Below, piece after piece: positions 1 to 12,822 of a stretch of DNA of 12,822 nt. How positions within the stretch are numbered: position 1 is the first letter of the stretch; each line of letters begins with the position of its first letter. Position numbers and translations under genes: made by a program. This DNA comes from Sedimentisphaerales bacterium (lineage in GTDB: Bacteria > Planctomycetota > Phycisphaerae > Sedimentisphaerales > SG8-4), in the NCBI GenBank assembly GCA_016928975.1, contig JAFGJR010000287.1, forward strand, positions 1 through 12,822, read 5' to 3'. The notes under the pieces were generated by a model. The model made no database searches. It saw only the letters and a list, made by a program, of their open reading frames with translations, and was not told the origin of the DNA.

Positions 1-3000
1 CCAGTCACATCTCCTATCAGCACTGGGTCCATCATTGGATACGCGGCAAAGCCGCTGTCGGACGCGACTGATACACGAAGGATGAGGTCTGCGTCGTAGT
101 CGCTGTAGGCGCGGTTGCCTGACGCATCGCCAATGTAGGCCACCACCTGGAGGCCACAGTCAGGCGCGACTTCTATGACCGCGCCGTTAATGTTCAGGTC
201 CTCAAGCCGCAGAATGGCAGTGGATTTGTATGGCGCATCCGCCGGAATAGCAGCCTGGAGCCGCACAAGCTCATTCTCACCTGCTGCCAAAGCCACAGAC
301 CCACCAGCCGTCACAGATACCCGGCCAGGCATTATCAGATCGTAGTCGACTACCCAGTTACCCGCCAGTCCCGGCGCCGCAGAGGCCCCCGTGACAGTCA
401 GCAATGTTGGATCGTACTCGAACACGAAGGACACCGCTTCAACATTGATGCCGTCATCGATTGTTATCGGGATACCGGAATCTGCCGCCGGGATATTCAC
501 GTCCTGGCCTGGGCCCCGCGTAACATCTGGCACGGATACTATCCTCCCCGTGCTGGACTCAACAGTCACGGTCGTTACGTAGTCGCCTCCCTCGACTCCA
601 TCTGCATCCCCGTCCAACAGGCGACCGCTAACATCCTTGAATCCATCAGGGCGGCTGACCAGCGTCACTGTGTATGTATCAGCCAACAATGGACCGCCAG
701 TCTTCACGAAGGTCACCGTTGAAGTCTCTTCGTTGTAGACCAGTGAACCTGCTACTGGGCCGACGGTATCACCTACGACTGTCATATCCGCTGGCCCGTA
801 TGCGCTCGCTCCCGTGTCGTATAGGTTCAGCACCGCCGAGTCGGGCCCGCTTGTGAAATGCACGACGAAGCCACACGGACGAACTCCGACGGAGTCTACC
901 CGCATTGGCGCAAGGATACCGTCCAGGGCCGGTTTCGGCGTTCTATCCTCATAGTGGAGCCCCCAGTGTCCCTCTACCTCCCCGTACTTCTGTTTCCACG
1001 GCTCGTCAAAAGCTTCGAATATGAAGTACTTGACATTCTGGGCTTCCGCGAGAGGCACAAAATCGACCAGGAACTGTGCCTGGTTCGCATCGCTCGGTAC
1101 GGCCGGCCCGTGAACGTCGCCGGCGGAGGGCCAGCCCGTCTCCAGAATGACAACCTCCTTGTCTGGATAGGCCTGTTGGACCGCGTTGTACTTGTCGATG
1201 ACGTATTGAGCCGCATCATCGATTGGGATGTCCTCCCAGTAGGGATGCACATGGATACCGATGAAATCCACCGCATTGGCCAGGTTGGGATGGTCCACCC
1301 AGATACTCCACGGCTCGCCGGTCGTTACGGGGACCTCCGTGGCAGCATCCACTTGGCCGATCAGATCGATCAACTCCTGCTCAGTGACATGGTTGAACAG
1401 CAGCGACTCACTGCCCACGATGAGTGCTTGGGTAGTGTCATAGCCCTCGCTCGCCAGGGCGATCAGGTCGGACACCGTCTGTTGATCCCATGTTGGGTCT
1501 CCCGATATCCAGCCTCCAGCGTAACAGCCAACCCCATACTGATCGCAGATTCTGGGTATCTCGCCCAGGACGTTGTCGATGCCGTAAGTTCTCGCCGCAC
1601 TTGCCATTCCAGCGATGATGGAGATGTCCTGCTCGACCTGCTCTTCCGTGGGGAAGATGCCCAGTTCAGGGCTTTGCCCCTCCCGGAACGGCCCATAGCA
1701 AACCCCGTACAGTGGCGGCCCTTCCGCAGCGACAATCACCGTTGATGCCTCGACCACGCCGGGGTCGTCCTCAACATGACCGACGTTGTCTCTGGCTACG
1801 CTACGGAACCCGTAGCTGTGGCCAACCTCGCCCGTGAATGCCGCCGAGGTCTCGGCGGTACCCGCCAGCCAGATTTCCCAGGGCCCCTCGTCATCGGAAA
1901 CGTAGATCGTGTACGTGGCGATGCCCGAGCCGTTCTCGTCGTCCTGCCCCGCCCAGCTCACGATCGTCCCCGATGCCATCTCACCCGGGAGTGCCTGCAC
2001 GCTGCTCGTCGGCTTGCCTGCGTCGATGGTATTGACCCAGGGCCCTTCTTTCGGTGCAGGGTGGTTGTAGAGATCGCCCGCGTGATCGAACTCAACGAAC
2101 GCCTGATTGGCGATCTGCGTCCCCGTGGCAAGCCCGTCTTTGGGCCGGACCGTGAAATCCACCCACCCGATCTCCTCACCGCTTTCGGTGATCGGAGGCA
2201 GGAAGCCTGCCATCGGATCGTCCGGCGTCTGCCGCGTTATGGGATCGAGCGTCCGGAACCGCCACGTTGCGAGCCCTGTGTCAGGATCGAAGGTGCCTTC
2301 CACATTGACGATCCAATCCATATCCGGACGTGTGTCCACATCCACGTTGAAATACTGGCAAGGCTCAAGGTCCACATTCCACTGGAGGAATCCCACCTCC
2401 TCGAAACGAAAGCTCCCCCAGTCCAGGCTCTCGTCAAGCTGATCCTCCACCAGAACGTCGTAGGCCGGTGCAGTCGCATCCTCCTTGTTCCAGAAGTCCA
2501 CCCGATAGTAGAACTCCTGATCTCCCGTCACAAACCGCTGACGTGCTTCGACAGAAGTGGCATCAACATCATAGCCAGCAGGACCATACTTGTCCTCGGG
2601 CGTAGTCGCCCCAACAGCAATGACCTCGAGGCTACTTTCATAGTCACCCTCTTGGATAGAGAACTCCTCTTCTATATCCTTCAGGTCTTCGTACAAGCTA
2701 TCTAGGTCAATAGCTGCATCGAATAGCTCATTGACAAGCTCCCCAAACTTGAACGCAAAATCCTTGATGAACTCTCCGAGTGTTACAGGCTCATATAGTA
2801 CACTCTCGTAATGCTCCTCGTAGACACGTTGTGCCTCGGCCTTTGCTGCGTCTGGATCTTCCCCTGATAGTAGCATGCCAACTTCTGCGAAACACGCATC
2901 CATGATACCTTTTCCGCCCTTCAAGGTCATTGTCAGCGACCCTTCCTGGGCAGTGCGGTATCCAAATCGAAAGCTCTTTCTGGTCTCAGGTGGGATTTTC

Positions 3001-6000
3001 CTGATCAGCCACCCCAAGAGACCTCCACCGCCGTCGTCGCCAGCCTGGACTGCCGACTCAGGCAACCTGCTTTCGAAAGATGCTGTGTACGAGCTTGGCG
3101 AGTTCTGTTCCCGCGCAGACTCATTCTCTGTCACCGTTAGGAGAACGTAAACATCGGTTGCATTCGTATTGGCGTGATTAGCCACGAGACAGTCGTAGTT
3201 TGTAGCTCGTCCGGATCTGACCACTGTCCTTCCAACAATCTCAAGAGACAGCTCCTCTGCGCAGCCAGTCTCAACCACAAATGGTTTTGCGGAAGTGGTC
3301 GTCTGTCCATCAGGGTTGGTCAAGATCAACTTCCATTCGCCGGGTTGCTGATCGGTCAGGTCGAATGTCGCCGTAAGCCCGAGGCCTCTGTCATCAGCCC
3401 AAACACTCTGGGCGACGATATCCTCATAGCCCGATCGGACCAGTGATACGGTAGCGTTCTCGTCCAGCCAGCCGCCTTTGATTTCGACCGTCACGAAACC
3501 TGTGTTTCCGCCCTTCTCGGGCGACACGCTGTAGATCGTGGGCAGATAACCCGGAGGCGGTTCGCCCGTGGCCTCGATGTCGGCCTTGAGCATCACATCG
3601 CGTGACTGGTCCTCGGCCCACTGGTCACCGACCCAGATCATGGCTGAATCGAGGAACTCCACGATGTACGTGCCAGGGGCGGGGTTGGGAATCTCTATCG
3701 ATGTTCCTGTCCCTTGAGCACTCACCCAATGTTGGGAGCTACCATATTGCCCCCGGTAGATATCGAAGTGGCTCCACATCCCCATCGCTTCGGCCTGGAG
3801 ATACAGCGTCTCCTGTCCCGGCGGCACCTCCACCTGGTACCAGACGGAGCCATAGCTCGCGAAGACTGTGCCGACGACCCACTCCCCCAGTGGCAACTCA
3901 GGCAGAGCGGTCCACACAGTGATGTGCCCCTCACCGCCTCTTTGTGCCGTCACCTCAACCGTATAAGAACCGGGTTCAGGATCAACGACATGTAGCATAA
4001 GATCGTGCGAGCCGCTCGTCGCAGCGATCTCTTTCCTGCCTCGAAGAAGCGACAGCTCGCTCGCCCAACTGTCGCCGTAGCTAATGAGCGTCGTCTTCTG
4101 CAACGTGACAAAGAGGTTCTGGGTATCGGGGACTTCGATGGGGTACTCCCTGGTCTCATCCTTGTACAGGTCCTGGTCCGGATATGAATACAGGGCACCG
4201 TCCGCCAATTCTCTGACATCAAGGGCCTCTTCGGTCGTCTCCTCATGGCCATCGGCCCAAGCTACGCACACGTCGTATAAGCCCAGCGAGGCAGCACTCA
4301 AATCGAAGTGGGCAATGATCACATTCGCAGACGAAAGAACCACCGTCTCGGCTGACGTCCTCTGGCCGCCCGCGTCCTGCACCGTAACCTCCATGCCAGT
4401 GTCAAAACCACCACCCAGGATGTGGACTATGGCCCTGTCCGACCGCGAAATCCTGCCTGGGTAGACGTCCACCACATACCGTTCTTGCTTAGGTACAAAG
4501 AACAGATAGGAGTCGTGAGCTTCGCCAACAAGGACAAATTCTCCGCTCACGGACACAGGCCCCCCAAAAAAAGAGAGTCCGTCGGCATCCGATGGCTCCA
4601 ACTTGGCGTACTCCGTCCAATACGTACCGCTACGCCTGAATAGGTAGGCTGAGCCAGAGTTCTGTCCGTTATCGTCGTCCTGTATCGCTCCGACAACGGC
4701 ATAGTCGCCATCGATGCAGACGGAGTACCCAAAGAAGTCTCCCTGGGCTCCGTATGGGGCCAGCAGCTTCTCTTGCTGCGTCCAGTCTATGCCATCGCGT
4801 TTGAAGACATACGCTGCCCCCGCGCAGCCCCCTTTGTCAGAATCTTGGGCAACCCCAACAAGAGCATATTCGCCATCGATCGACACAGCGTCCGGCCAAA
4901 TGATTGTGGTCTGGTGCGAGGGTATGTCCAGCTTCGCTTCCTCGGTCCACACTGTTCCATTGCGCCGGAATATGCAAGGTCCCAGCCGGTCCGCCCCGAT
5001 CAGAGCGTAATCCCCACTCACGGACACAGAGTGGCCGAATTCGTTATAATATTCGACATCTGAAGGCAGCAATGTGGTTTGCTGGGTCCAATCTGAGCCA
5101 TCACGCCCGAAGACGTACGCCGCGCCAGACGAATAGCCATTCTCAACGCCTGGTGCACCGACGACGGCATAGGCACCATCAATAGCCACTGAAGCGCCAA
5201 ACTCGTCCCCGCCGGCCCCATCTGAGGCAGCAAGCTTGGCCTCTTGAACCCAGCCTGTGTTGTCGCGTTTGAATATGTATGCCGCGCCAAGGCTGCTTCC
5301 AGATGCACCTGGTGCTCCAACGATAATGTGGTCGCCACTAATATCGACGGACCATCCGAACTGATCAAGCTCGGCACAATCTGAGGCATATAGCTTTGCC
5401 TCCTCGACCCATCTGGTACCGTTTCGTCTGAACACGTAAGCGGCGCCGGCACGGACACCTTTATCATTGTCCCACCGGTCCCCGACAACAGCATAATCGC
5501 CATCGATGGATACATTAGAGCCAATAGTACTACCGGATGGCGTAAGCGTAGCCACTTGGTGGTACGACTCGGCAGAGGATGCAAGATGGGACAAGGCGGA
5601 GGTGGCGGGGGCTGCGTCCTGGTGGACATAGCCGAGCAGATGCCCCGCTTCATGAGCGATGATGCAGGTCAACTTGTCAGCCAACGACGCCAAGTCAGGC
5701 AACTCACGCCCGAGACGCTCGCCGAAGACAAACGCCTCGTCAGCCAGGTCGGTGTTCCTCACATCCACCTGCTCCGCCAACCCAAGGAATGATCCATATT
5801 GATCAAAGGCCGAGTCATCCCCACCGATGTAGATGGTGGAGTACTCAGATCCCTCAGAGGGCTGTTGCGTTGCGAAGATAACGCCGGAACCGGCAAAGAT
5901 ATCCTGGAGGTTCAATAGGACTTGATCGATGATGACCTGTTCTTGTCCGGCCAGTTCGCCCACGGGCTGGAAGGCAGGGACATCGAAGGGACCGATGGTC

Positions 6001-6773
6001 ACAGGACCGTTGTAGACAGCGTCTTGCTCGCCGTCGAAATCGAGGTAAACGATCTGGCCTTGCCAGTTGGAGATGTCCGGGTCAAGCAGCACGAGCCCCG
6101 GCAGATCGGGCGCTACAAGGCTTGTGGTGGTCGATGAAGCTCCGCCTTCAGCCAAGGTGATGGGCTGTTCTTCCTCTCCGTATGTTGCCTGACATAAAGG
6201 ACTTACAGAGTCACAATCGCCGTTCGGGGGCCCGCGGGCCTCGATTGGGAACCCATCAGAACCTGTCATGCCATCCTGCTGGTCCGAGACGATCAGGCCA
6301 GCAGGTTCATCCTCAATCGGAGCAGTCAACCCGTAGGACTCGGTCGCAATCTGAACGGCGGATTCAACCTGCCCCAACGGCGTTGCCACAAAAGTCAGCG
6401 CCGCTACATCATCCACTTTGGCAGCCCGCACGGCGTCATCAAGGGGCTGCCTGCCGGGACCTGCATCTTCCGTGTCAGCAAGCGATGGACCATCGGACAT
6501 GTCGGCCTGCGGCGAATCTGGCTCGCCCGTGGACACAAGGTAGGTCAAGACGAGGGAGCAATCATTCTCCTGGACCACTTCCTGCCCTTGATTCAGATCA
6601 ACGACGATAGCCTGTTCGCCCGGCGATGACTGGAGGGGATTCAAGAGGTCGGTGCCGATCAGATCTGCACTGAGAAGCAGTCTCGGCTCAAGCTGCTCCA
6701 GGAGAGGTGGTCCAGGAGCCTGCACCATCCCCCTCGCCCCTTTTATTCCTCTCACTCGACCCAGCAGATCCAT
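1..6773 (-). CDS. Giant LEPR-XLL multidomain exoprotein with metzincin-like, FG-GAP, GH17, cohesin and dockerin modules (partial; C-terminus off the left edge)
   Basis: Open without a stop from ATG 6773 to the window edge (2257 codons). The start is supported by GGAG 5 nt upstream and an in-frame stop shortly before it. Domains by residue: LEPR-XLL 28-37 (LEPRLLLSAD), thought to be an N-terminal export or sorting signal; metzincin-like segment about 239-390 with HEAGHLLGYVH at 374-384; FG-GAP-type repeats 407-765; IPT/TIG about 766-853; two PPC-like beta domains about 860-1058; IPT/TIG 1077-1168; unassigned 1170-1378, with an acidic helical stretch 1305-1375; DUF11/DUF7619-like 1379-1585; Fn3-like 1584-1675; GH17 1687-1955; Big-like 1956-2076; cohesin-like 2079-2210; dockerin-like from 2214. 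Inferred to be a cell-surface or secreted protein acting on beta-1,3-glucan and binding partner modules. No operon partner is visible. Domain calls come from motif recognition; GH17, LEPR, FG-GAP and dockerin are the firmest. The protease and PPC calls are weaker. Confidence 0.9.
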   Translation of the reverse strand, partial: MDLLGRVRGIKGARGMVQAPGPPLLEQLEPRLLLSADLIGTDLLNPLQSSPGEQAIVVDLNQGQEVVQENDCSLVLTYLVSTGEPDSPQADMSDGPSLADTEDAGPGRQPLDDAVRAAKVDDVAALTFVATPLGQVESAVQIATESYGLTAPIEDEPAGLIVSDQQDGMTGSDGFPIEARGPPNGDCDSVSPLCQATYGEEEQPITLAEGGASSTTTSLVAPDLPGLVLLDPDISNWQGQIVYLDFDGEQDAVYNGPVTIGPFDVPAFQPVGELAGQEQVIIDQVLLNLQDIFAGSGVIFATQQPSEGSEYSTIYIGGDDSAFDQYGSFLGLAEQVDVRNTDLADEAFVFGERLGRELPDLASLADKLTCIIAHEAGHLLGYVHQDAAPATSALSHLASSAESYHQVATLTPSGSTIGSNVSIDGDYAVVGDRWDNDKGVRAGAAYVFRRNGTRWVEEAKLYASDCAELDQFGWSVDISGDHIIVGAPGASGSSLGAAYIFKRDNTGWVQEAKLAASDGAGGDEFGASVAIDGAYAVVGAPGVENGYSSGAAYVFGRDGSDWTQQTTLLPSDVEYYNEFGHSVSVSGDYALIGADRLGPCIFRRNGTVWTEEAKLDIPSHQTTIIWPDAVSIDGEYALVGVAQDSDKGGCAGAAYVFKRDGIDWTQQEKLLAPYGAQGDFFGYSVCIDGDYAVVGAIQDDDNGQNSGSAYLFRRSGTYWTEYAKLEPSDADGLSFFGGPVSVSGEFVLVGEAHDSYLFFVPKQERYVVDVYPGRISRSDRAIVHILGGGFDTGMEVTVQDAGGQRTSAETVVLSSANVIIAHFDLSAASLGLYDVCVAWADGHEETTEEALDVRELADGALYSYPDQDLYKDETREYPIEVPDTQNLFVTLQKTTLISYGDSWASELSLLRGRKEIAATSGSHDLMLHVVDPEPGSYTVEVTAQRGGEGHITVWTALPELPLGEWVVGTVFASYGSVWYQVEVPPGQETLYLQAEAMGMWSHFDIYRGQYGSSQHWVSAQGTGTSIEIPNPAPGTYIVEFLDSAMIWVGDQWAEDQSRDVMLKADIEATGEPPPGYLPTIYSVSPEKGGNTGFVTVEIKGGWLDENATVSLVRSGYEDIVAQSVWADDRGLGLTATFDLTDQQPGEWKLILTNPDGQTTTSAKPFVVETGCAEELSLEIVGRTVVRSGRATNYDCLVANHANTNATDVYVLLTVTENESAREQNSPSSYTASFESRLPESAVQAGDDGGGGLLGWLIRKIPPETRKSFRFGYRTAQEGSLTMTLKGGKGIMDACFAEVGMLLSGEDPDAAKAEAQRVYEEHYESVLYEPVTLGEFIKDFAFKFGELVNELFDAAIDLDSLYEDLKDIEEEFSIQEGDYESSLEVIAVGATTPEDKYGPAGYDVDATSVEARQRFVTGDQEFYYRVDFWNKEDATAPAYDVLVEDQLDESLDWGSFRFEEVGFLQWNVDLEPCQYFNVDVDTRPDMDWIVNVEGTFDPDTGLATWRFRTLDPITRQTPDDPMAGFLPPITESGEEIGWVDFTVRPKDGLATGTQIANQAFVEFDHAGDLYNHPAPKEGPWVNTIDAGKPTSSVQALPGEMASGTIVSWAGQDDENGSGIATYTIYVSDDEGPWEIWLAGTAETSAAFTGEVGHSYGFRSVARDNVGHVEDDPGVVEASTVIVAAEGPPLYGVCYGPFREGQSPELGIFPTEEQVEQDISIIAGMASAARTYGIDNVLGEIPRICDQYGVGCYAGGWISGDPTWDQQTVSDLIALASEGYDTTQALIVGSESLLFNHVTEQELIDLIGQVDAATEVPVTTGEPWSIWVDHPNLANAVDFIGIHVHPYWEDIPIDDAAQYVIDKYNAVQQAYPDKEVVILETGWPSAGDVHGPAVPSDANQAQFLVDFVPLAEAQNVKYFIFEAFDEPWKQKYGEVEGHWGLHYEDRTPKPALDGILAPMRVDSVGVRPCGFVVHFTSGPDSAVLNLYDTGASAYGPADMTVVGDTVGPVAGSLVYNEETSTVTFVKTGGPLLADTYTVTLVSRPDGFKDVSGRLLDGDADGVEGGDYVTTVTVESSTGRIVSVPDVTRGPGQDVNIPAADSGIPITIDDGINVEAVSFVFEYDPTLLTVTGASAAPGLAGNWVVDYDLIMPGRVSVTAGGSVALAAGENELVRLQAAIPADAPYKSTAILRLEDLNINGAVIEVAPDCGLQVVAYIGDASGNRAYSDYDADLILRVSVASDSGFAAYPMMDPVLIGDVT
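3..134 (-). other. Dockerin-like segment, first calcium-binding half (cut by the window edge)
   Basis: Residues 2214 onward begin IGDASGNRAYSDYDADLILR. D2216, S2218, N2220 and D2227 sit at the 1, 3, 5 and 12 positions of a dockerin EF-hand-like loop, followed by the expected helix. A second loop appears to begin at IGDVTG, where the window ends. Type I-like dockerins have two such halves. Confidence 0.75.
144..539 (-). other. Cohesin-like domain (within the giant exoprotein)
   Basis: Residues about 2079-2210. The sequence opens with VSVPDVTRGPGQDVNIP and continues with VEAVSFVFEYDPTLLTVTG, a strand resembling the cohesin signature (GFEFxLxYDPxxLxxxG). It then runs through PGRVSVTAGGS and ILRLEDLNING, the late strands of the jelly-roll. 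In cellulosomes cohesins bind dockerins; in planctomycetes the partner is generally unknown. A dockerin follows directly on the same chain. Confidence 0.72.
909..1715 (-). other. GH17 beta-1,3-glucanase-like catalytic domain (within the giant exoprotein)
   Basis: Residues about 1687-1955 run from YGVCYGPFREGQSPE through the ARTYG strand, GEPW, HVHPYWEDIP, NQAQFL and FEAFDEPWK to HWGL. These are the landmarks of bacterial GH17 domains, which fold as TIM barrels. The nucleophile is E1878 in ILETGWPS and the acid/base is E1789 in VGSESLL. The residue before the acid/base is Ser1788, where the family and its clan normally have Asn. Known GH17 enzymes hydrolyse or transglycosylate beta-1,3- or beta-1,3/1,4-glucans such as laminarin. 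Substrate is inferred from the family. Confidence 0.87.
4479..5555 (-). repeat. Seven tandem FG-GAP-type beta-propeller repeats (within the giant exoprotein)
   Basis: Residues about 407-765 contain seven units of roughly 45-57 residues. The typical unit has FGxSVxIDGDYAVVGAP, then GAAYVFxRxG, then WTQQxKLxxSD. The best conserved are units 2, 3 and 6. Unit 4 is shortened (its GAAYVF strand is reduced to GPCIF) and unit 5 has lost the FG. Seven blades fit a closed integrin-alpha-like propeller used for adhesion or protein contact. The set lies directly after the protease-like motif. Confidence 0.88.
5622..5654 (-). other. Metzincin-type zinc-binding motif in the giant exoprotein
   Basis: Residues 374-384 read HEAGHLLGYVH, an exact HExxHxxGxxH match: zinc ligands H374, H378 and H384, and catalytic base E375. 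Upstream are IVYLDFDG (241-248) and a YSTIYIGG strand, which I associate with matrixin-like segments in planctomycete exoproteins. No Met-turn methionine is obvious in the roughly 25 residues that follow before the FG-GAP block, so activity is uncertain. Confidence 0.7.
6663..6692 (-). other. LEPR-XLL motif at the N-terminus of the giant exoprotein
   Basis: Residues 28-37 read LEPRLLLSAD, preceded by LLEQ. This is the near-invariant core of the LEPR-XLL domain found at the N-terminus of very large secreted proteins, especially in planctomycetes. Its place within the first 40 residues supports the ATG at 6773. No classical hydrophobic signal peptide precedes it, as is usual for this family. 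The export role is inferred from the family. Confidence 0.9.
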
Positions 6774-7298: not shown

Positions 7299-7556
7299 TC
7301 ATCCGCATTTCGTATCCCCGCAGTAGTCGCAGACGGCACAGTTCGCTTCCCGCCGCATGGGCCGGCCACATTCCTCGCAGATCTGCCGGAACGGCGAGGT
7401 GGTCTCAGTGTCAGCAGCCCCCATGGCCTCCTTCAAGGCCCGAGCGATGGCATCAGGGCAGGAGAGGACATCGATCTCCTTGTTGGTCTTGCGAGCCACA
7501 GCTGCCGACAGGCACCGAATACCGGAGAGCTGATCGATCATGACGCCCGGATCGGC
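7299..7556 (-). pseudogene. 3' remnant of a B12-dependent (class II) ribonucleotide reductase: TSCPD region plus Cys-rich C-terminal tail
   Basis: About 86 residues. GVMIDQLSGIRC and VLSCPDAIARALKEAMG match the TSCPD-type region of adenosylcobalamin-dependent ribonucleoside-diphosphate reductases. The tail CEECGRP, NCAVC and DYCGDTKCG ending at the stop is the Zn-ribbon/redox C-terminus of the same enzymes. The natural stop is present, but everything upstream (the catalytic barrel, about 700 or more residues) is missing and replaced by a beta-helix gene in another frame. A short TTG-initiated product from 7571 is formally possible but would lack the active site. A free-standing TSCPD protein is the alternative, but the upstream half of that domain is also absent. 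Confidence 0.68.
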
Positions 7557-7972
7557 CCCCACCAGTCCCAACTCTTGAATCCCTTTGCAGGATCTCCGGA
7601 ATCGATCACGGTCCAGCCCGTGGCGCCGGAGCCGAGACTGCCGTCGAAGTCGCCAACCAGACTGTTGTATGCCCCGGGCGCACCTTTGTACGCCGGCGCC
7701 AGATTGGCTTCAACGTAGGTATCCGGCCGAATGATGATGCGATGACCACCCCTGTCGTCGGGCACTGAGTCCAGCGCCTTTTGAATCGTATGGAAGGCGG
7801 CTCTCCAGCTCCGTCCGTTCGAGTTGTCGCCCTGTTTCGAGACGTAGAGCGTCGCCCCGCGTCCAGCGTCACGCGCAACAGCGGACGATCCTTCCTGCGC
7901 AACACAAATCGGGAGACTGCCTGCGAGCAATATCAACAGTACGACGGCCTTTGCATCCAACGTAGAACTCAT
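7538..7972 (-). pseudogene. 5' remnant of a secreted right-handed beta-helix (pectate-lyase-like) protein
   Basis: 144 codons from ATG 7972 with GGGAG 6 nt upstream. Residues 1-25 are a signal peptide (LDAKAVVLLILLAGSLPICVA, probable cleavage before Q). The mature start ATLYVSKQGDNSNGRSW, then FHTIQKALDSVP and GHRIIIRPDTYVE, is the opening of parallel beta-helix carbohydrate-active proteins. GDFDGSLGSGATGW and GFKSWDWWGPIRA look like a conserved insert seen in planctomycete members. The family is usually several hundred residues long; here the frame ends just after GPIRAS, where reductase sequence begins. The gene start is intact, so a truncated, probably inactive product may be made. Confidence 0.75.
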
Positions 7973-8195: not shown

Positions 8196-12212
<4,017 letters not shown>

Positions 12213-12526: not shown

Positions 12527-12822
12527 GCTGCCGGTGCGATGTGGTCTTCCCAGATGCCCCATACCTCCCAAGTTTGGCTTTGTTTGTACAACGGGCCGTC
12601 CGTCGCCTCGTAGCGTGGGTCGCGCCCACCGGTTGCCTGGCGGGCAAATTGGCTTTGTTTCGCACGCTCGGCTCCGCGGTGGGAATCGCTGCCGGTGCGA
12701 TGTGGTTTCCCCCAAATGTCCCAGTCCTCCCAGATTTGGCTTTGTTTCGCACGACCTGCCATCCACCGCTTCGCAGGGCCCTGCCCTTCGGCTGCTTGGC
12801 AGGGCAAATTGGCTTTGTTTCG
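12527..12822. repeat. Composite intergenic repeat array with a TTGGCTTTGTTT core (continues past the right edge)
   Basis: Four copies of the core lie at about 12573, 12648, 12735 and 12807 (steps of 75, 87 and 72). Two kinds of unit alternate. The long unit, at 12527-12585 and 12688-12747, starts GCTGCCGGTGCGATGTGGT and ends GATTTGGCTTTGTTT or similar. The short unit ends GGGCAAATTGGCTTTGTTTCG (12643-12662 and 12802-12822) and is preceded by a GC-rich inverted repeat. On the minus strand the core reads as NKAN/NKAK, KQSQ or ETKP in the three frames, a motif I recognise from mispredicted planctomycete proteins. Not protein-coding. Confidence 0.8.
12778..12805. repeat. Inverted repeat inside the short array unit
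   Basis: GCCCTGCC (12778-12785) and GGCAGGGC (12798-12805) are perfect 8-bp inverted copies with a 12-nt loop, directly before AAATTGGCTTTGTTT. The other short unit has an equivalent, one-mismatch pair (GCCCACC and GGCGGGC) at the same place. Confidence 0.55.

Follow-up and report, generated by a model that had tools for sequence, protein, structure and literature searches.

The window, by which we mean the whole 12,822-nucleotide stretch of DNA that was analysed, carries on its minus strand a giant open reading frame (positions 3-6773, 2257 codons) that begins with an ATG at 6773 and runs off the low end of the window. The modules of the encoded protein, from its N-terminus onwards, and the gene divergent from it are as follows:

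6654..6704, minus strand: LEPR-XLL motif, residues 24-40, around LEPRLLLSAD, an N-terminal export/sorting-type signal (NCBIfam LEPR-8K, 26.7 bits, cut-off 17)
6093..6653, minus strand: variable linker, residues 41-227; the LEPR-to-head spacing differs among relatives
5562..6092, minus strand: zincin head module, residues 228-404, with 81 relatives and the zinc motif HEAGHLLGYVH at 5622-5654
4434..5561, minus strand: seven FG-GAP repeats, residues 405-780 (Pfam FG-GAP_2, seven stretches, 1.3e-86)
3234..4433, minus strand: IPT-like / PPC-like / IPT-like stalk, residues 781-1180 (Pfam PPC weak, 0.46; IPT is a by-eye reading aided by the Pfam labels of relatives)
2574..3233, minus strand: CARDB-like or unknown segment, residues 1181-1400, poorly conserved (CARDB is a by-eye reading, with no Pfam match)
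1734..2573, minus strand: DUF7619 and FN-like domain, residues 1401-1680 (Pfam DUF7619, 9.8e-8; four relatives aligned; FN is a by-eye reading)
909..1733, minus strand: GH17 cassette, residues ~1681-1955, with predicted acid/base Glu1789 and nucleophile Glu1878 (Pfam GH17; phmmer to 4wtp, 5e-26)
564..908, minus strand: Big_5-like Ig domain, residues 1956-2070
144..563, minus strand: cohesin, residues 2071-2210
3..143, minus strand: a dockerin-like module of which only the first half, residues 2211-2257, precedes the contig end; relatives extend beyond
8262..12212, plus strand: divergent from the giant gene, a GH2 beta-galactosidase of LacZ type that ends in an F5/8 type C domain (NCBIfam beta_gal_Bga2A, 1006.4 bits, cut-off 999; Pfam)

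A preliminary description of this DNA, made from the letters alone, had reported the 2257-codon open frame, and the frame holds up: its log10 chance of staying open in random sequence of the same composition is about -38, and the longest open stretch found in 200 shuffles was 332 codons. GC content at codon positions 1/2/3 is 0.64/0.45/0.65. The database copy of the protein, P0002, comes from a contig of the same 12,822 bases, so the window spans the whole contig. In Pfam, FG-GAP_2 (seven times), GH17 (1.2e-12), and DUF7619 exceed their cut-offs, and the scores for Cohesin, Reprolysin_4, Reprolysin_5, and PPC stay under theirs; an Rfam search gave no match. The domain search that the preliminary description had proposed thus found GH17 above cut-off, with cohesin also identified, and LEPR-8K confirmed the LEPR-XLL motif that had been placed at the front. 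The FG-GAP repeat motif occurs at seven positions spaced 47-55 residues apart, and so the seven units of the propeller described earlier are present as repeats, the propeller itself being predicted from them. The PPC-like part of the stalk is fully covered by 31 of 119 relatives among the matches listed, and residues 1181-1400 have low coverage in most stalk relatives.

Two further observations concern the DNA outside the giant frame. At 7299-7972 on the minus strand, two gene fragments are joined out of frame at ~7.57 kb. The first fragment encodes the opening 144 residues of a secreted protein, which by eye resembles a right-handed beta-helix and has no family above cut-off. The second encodes the C-terminus of a B12-dependent ribonucleotide reductase and matches TSCPD at 30.1 bits against 22.8 and PRK08665 at 3.6e-8, the latter far under the whole-protein cut-off as expected of a fragment. 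The junction is either a deletion scar or an assembly chimera. At the right contig end, positions 12527-12822 hold 1.8 copies of a 162-base tandem repeat.

The segment previously called metzincin-like has its HExxHxxGxxH zinc motif intact (residues 374-384), but the rest of the metzincin description did not hold: no Met is present at residues 385-424, where a Met-turn was looked for, and the Pfam scores for Reprolysin_4 (17.0 bits against a cut-off of 22) and Reprolysin_5 (16.9 against 27) both fall short. Any Met within 40 residues after the zinc motif was found in only 14 of the 76 family sequences with the motif. A chance origin of the zinc motif was rejected, given 0.0003 expected per protein by composition and the conservation of the module, which has 81 non-self relatives in the protein database, 75 of them with the motif intact. 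A fold search with this head gave weak, mixed matches that included zinc peptidases but also amidases and cutinases, and we therefore make no claim of a zincin fold. Neither Pfam nor NCBIfam yielded, in this analysis, a model specific to the head family; PF06262 matches 3 of 28 members, weakly.

When the heads were clustered, P0005 and P0144 were left out of the 82 sequences, since in both the earliest head copy sits past residue 400. The 80 N-terminal heads that remained (79 relatives and the window) form one similarity cluster, and the 300 residues that follow them form 39, the largest with 12 sequences and the window alone in its own. By these alignments, the family appears to be a tight, usually N-terminal head of planctomycete-type giants, and the occurrence of one head with so many different bodies argues for a general task. 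The database names of head-bearing relatives, such as P0125 and P0144 (Sedimentisphaerales), P0171 (Phycisphaeraceae), and P0173 (Phycisphaerae), would place the head in Phycisphaerae-type planctomycetes, with P0190 (Actinomycetota) and P0199 (Kiritimatiellae) as exceptions by name.

Several observations on individual heads are worth recording. A zinc ligand is lost (RETGH or HExGR) in the head copies of P0005 (residues 2036-2191, near the C-terminus), P0138, P0172, and P0196. P0126 carries, on the same chain as its Met-turn-less head, a second zinc-peptidase domain at residues 1121-1294 that scores over the Reprolysin_4 cut-off. We rejected this domain as a second head copy because its identity to the head is just 25% (E 6e-4) and a PIMG stretch resembling a Met-turn comes after it; it is best read as a separate, distantly related zinc peptidase. 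A plasmid search with the zincin head gave no match, and a search of viral contigs confirmed 1 locus among 45 pattern matches. At that locus (L002, an IMG/VR contig, 5434-6687), a gene with LEPR and zincin head lies just after a long frame labelled phage-tail-like by eye, perhaps at a prophage border.

The head is closely associated with the N-terminal motif. Of the 81 head-bearing relatives, 58 have a LEPR-type motif within their first 110 residues, versus 14 of 180 other relatives (Fisher 7.9e-26), and a stricter pattern still finds it in 51 of the 81; outside the first 110 residues, the motif occurs once in 549,885 residues. By a slightly different pattern, 24 of the 81 head-bearing relatives are without the motif, and since the head starts before residue 100 in 19 of these, some may be truncated. 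The distance between the motif's start and the YLDFDG head strand is 213 residues in the window and 27 to 251 in the 57 relatives with both, 14 of which have the motif start only 27-32 residues from the first conserved head strand. The highest value in N-terminal windows was 0.53, with no strongly hydrophobic stretch, which fits a LEPR/PF07595-type signal rather than a classical one.

The GH17 glucanase module named in the preliminary description is well founded, with a Pfam GH17 score of 48.5 bits against a cut-off of 28.2 and both catalytic glutamates in place, although its activity is a prediction. The best solved relatives retrieved by phmmer, over residues 1707-1950, were 4wtp and 4wtr (3.4e-25 for the latter), which are structures of the Rhizomucor miehei beta-1,3-glucanosyltransferase RmBgt17A. 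VGSE (Glu1789) and ETGW (Glu1878) of the window align with Glu99 and Glu189 of RmBgt17A by our own count (constant offset 34), and these are given as its acid/base and nucleophile, respectively, in the available text of PMC11005184. By the same count, the ETGW glutamate at which 4wtr differs from 4wtp is Glu189. That source also reports, in the text available, that Trp157, Glu158, and Tyr102 are necessary for transfer, that changing Tyr102 to Ala abolished transglycosylation, and that the exo-glucanase FbGH17B has Met at the Tyr102 position (PMC11005184). In the window, Trp157 and Glu158 are kept as Trp1846 and Glu1847, and Tyr102 is replaced by Leu1792. Other GH17 giants have Leu (P0066, P0104, P0215) or Tyr (P0206, P0262) at this position. 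The domain is therefore probably active, as far as its residues can tell, and the replacement of Tyr102 leads us, with modest confidence, to favour hydrolysis over transfer even though Trp1846 and Glu1847 are kept.

At the back of the protein, cohesin and dockerin modules had been proposed, of which the cohesin stands by fold and by the Pfam matches of its relatives, and the dockerin stands only as a dockerin-like first half. The Pfam Cohesin score of the window protein is under the cut-off of 24.1 bits (18.1 with the full chain, 22.5 with the tail). Nevertheless, the fold test identified a cohesin fold, and 14 of 15 aligned members match Pfam Cohesin at E<=0.01, the best at 1.4e-9. The contig ends within the first dockerin-like repeat. 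Of the 62 relatives with room for it, 41 show two matches to a loose calcium-loop pattern, 14 show one, and 7 show none.

To see how these modules are combined elsewhere, a set of 262 sequences, i.e., 261 database proteins and the L001 frame, was scored for five groups of modules, namely the zincin head, the FG-GAP repeats, the stalk block, GH17, and the tail. The three protein searches covered chains of ~1240-3950 residues, two of them scoring the 7980 and 7988 candidates that shared most words, and the whole-protein relatives were the best 120 of 173 matches. Among the matches listed, 247 of the 262 sequences have one group, 15 have two, and none has three or more, so that within this set and these chain lengths the full combination is seen in the window protein only. 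At least one stalk module is present in 47 of the 262 listed. Whole-chain alignments differ slightly from this map, as some FG-GAP relatives, e.g., P0077, also align into the stalk. The L001 frame itself (7967-12877, 1637 codons, from a MAG labelled Chloroflexi) shows several repeated domains by eye, and its best segment is 61% identical to the stalk block of the window, which reflects either exchange between phyla or misbinning. LEPR-8K gave no match in this MAG, a result of no weight because it also gave none in the 14 controls.

Eight relatives have both stalk and tail, and in all eight the stalk comes before the Big_5-cohesin tail. In P0204, P0212, P0201, and P0202, only 2-4 residues separate the FN-like domain from the Big_5-like one, and the window's GH17 (~1681-1955) occupies exactly this junction, with good alignment to these four relatives on both sides; the remaining four have ~440-650 other residues between the two domains. 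Because the neighbouring modules abut in four of the eight, GH17 looks like a cassette inserted between stalk and tail, judging from the alignments. The five other GH17 giants found among the matches listed all lack both the zincin head and the LEPR motif. The earlier suggestion that this combination had not been described agrees with the 262 mapped sequences, as far as the matches listed go, and with the literature searched. In that literature, mostly papers outside subscription and in the text available from them, no description was found of the LEPR-zincin head as a family or of this architecture, the nearest being a Vibrio protein (PMC10868602).

Several known systems bear comparison with the window protein. 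A PF07595-type N-terminal signal of planctomycete surface proteins has been described as probably serving export (Studholme 2004, cited in the available text of PMC8567305), and a related motif is reported there for 8 of the 10 longest proteins of Tuwongella (PMC8567305). These proteins resemble ours in carrying a LExRxLL-like N-terminal motif, taken here as kin of LEPR-XLL, on very long chains. In contrast, the window protein does not match PF07595 at E<=1, and their description, in the text available, includes no conserved zincin head behind the motif. The 'planctosome' model of Nemodlikiaceae likewise links cohesin/dockerin modules to a zinc peptidase in planctomycetes, namely one that is M12B Reprolysin_4-like, and its available text gives no evidence for a cellulose role (PMC6461901). 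There, however, the peptidases bind an adaptor chain by cohesin-dockerin contacts, whereas the window has zincin, GH17, cohesin, and half a dockerin on one chain. The Vibrio giant, of about 8000 residues, also joins an N-terminal LEPR-XLL to a zinc peptidase on one chain, but its peptidase is C-terminal and of serralysin type, next to RTX domains, and GH17 and cohesin go unmentioned in the available description (PMC10868602). The mini-zincin Acel_2062 (PF06262) shares a HExxHxxGxx-type motif near the domain end and the lack of a Met-turn, but its third ligand is given as Asp (PMC3890501, in the text available) where the window has His. P0206, like the window protein, has a protease and GH17 on one long chain, but the protease is an unrelated cysteine peptidase, and LEPR, zincin head, and Big_5-cohesin tail were not found in it. 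RmBgt17A and MlGH17B share both catalytic Glu motifs with the window, and RmBgt17A its Trp157 and Glu158 as well; the window differs in having Leu1792 for Tyr102 and a domain embedded in a giant chain. The window protein fits the known context of planctomycete surface giants and planctosomes as a variant.

Our best explanation of the whole, to which we give a probability of roughly 0.62, is an exported modular giant with a general zincin head, a GH17 cassette, and an assembly tail, from a bacterium that is planctomycete-type going by the names of relatives. What is observed is the frame, the identity of the modules (partial for dockerin), the placement of GH17 as an insertion, and the sharing of the head; from these we infer export, catalysis, substrate, and assembly as follows. 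The LEPR-XLL segment would direct export, going by the published motif. The head would be a general peptidase, most likely active near the cell surface with its own chain or neighbouring ones as substrate. The propeller of FG-GAP repeats and the Ig-like stalk would hold and display the chain, and the GH17 cassette would cut beta-1,3-glucan such as laminarin. Through calcium-dependent cohesin/dockerin contacts, the Big_5-cohesin-dockerin tail may then link the giant to other proteins.

Misassembly of separate genes into one long frame is very improbable. It might be suspected from the single metagenome contig, from the out-of-frame fragments nearby at ~7.57 kb, and from the fact that zincin head and FG-GAP stand side by side in no relative (P0168 and P0191, which have both groups, hold them ~980-1180 residues apart). 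Against this stand the 2257 open codons with their codon-position GC, the stalk-then-tail order shared by all eight relatives with both, and the alignments of P0003 and P0077, which continue from FG-GAP into the next IPT-like region; the window protein is a real, well-formed modular giant. Also unlikely is that its GH17 remodels glucan by transglycosylation, like RmBgt17A and MlGH17B, instead of degrading it: the closest solved structure is a glucanosyltransferase and two of its acceptor-site residues are kept, but Leu1792 replaces the third, a position where the exo-glucanase FbGH17B has Met (PMC11005184, in the text available).

The preliminary description had envisaged a surface machine attacking both the protein and the beta-1,3-glucan parts of algal or fungal walls. 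In such a dual attack, the zincin would cut the proteins and GH17 the glucan of one and the same wall, and the tail would dock more enzymes. Both active-site motifs are intact on one chain, and a precedent of another kind exists in P0206, which combines peptidase C25 (1e-63), polysaccharide deacetylase, and GH17. The zincin, however, goes with LEPR-XLL and not with GH17, being common to 80 chains with 39 body clusters and missing from all five other GH17 giants among the matches listed. What survives of the machine is thus a giant of modular build that has an export-type signal, a GH17 that is probably active, and an assembly module; the zincin and GH17 as one wall-attacking pair do not, and we consider such a dual attack improbable, slightly more so than transglycosylation. 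We can only infer an algal or fungal target. Since the head recurs on 39 body clusters, is absent from the other GH17 giants, and stands beside a second peptidase in P0126, it likelier serves something common to these proteins, and its sequence relationships suggest a peptidase with a probably general role, in processing or at the surface, and not a partner of the glucanase. One such task would be that of a maturase in a signal-linked sorting system, which trims LEPR-XLL or processes its own or sister chains after export. The usual order of LEPR then zincin, the tight spacing in 14 of 57 relatives, the enrichment of LEPR in head-bearing proteins, and the zinc site retained in 75 of 81 heads all speak for it. 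On the other hand, LEPR is kept in P0138, P0172, and P0196, which are half of the six relatives whose zinc site is broken, 14 of the 180 other relatives have LEPR without the head, and no cleavage site was found. Furthermore, four relatives have a head copy away from the front, as a second copy in P0122 and P0123 and as the sole copy in P0144 and P0005 (degenerate in the latter). We regard the maturase as a tentative idea with the odds against it. The same doubt attaches to its broadest form, in which LEPR-XLL and the Met-turn-less zincin would be one sorting device, reused with dozens of bodies, that exports a giant and afterwards, by cutting, releases itself or its sister chains or sets them in place on the planctomycete surface.

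Within the reading of an exported modular giant with a general head, the main interest of the window protein is that head. Giants with a PF07595-type signal are among the longest planctomycete proteins, and the signal is thought to serve export, per the available text of PMC8567305. The clean insertion of GH17 shows how enzymes can plug into a ready-made surface chassis, and a zinc-peptidase module tied to an export-type signal offers a concrete, testable candidate for how different giants are processed.
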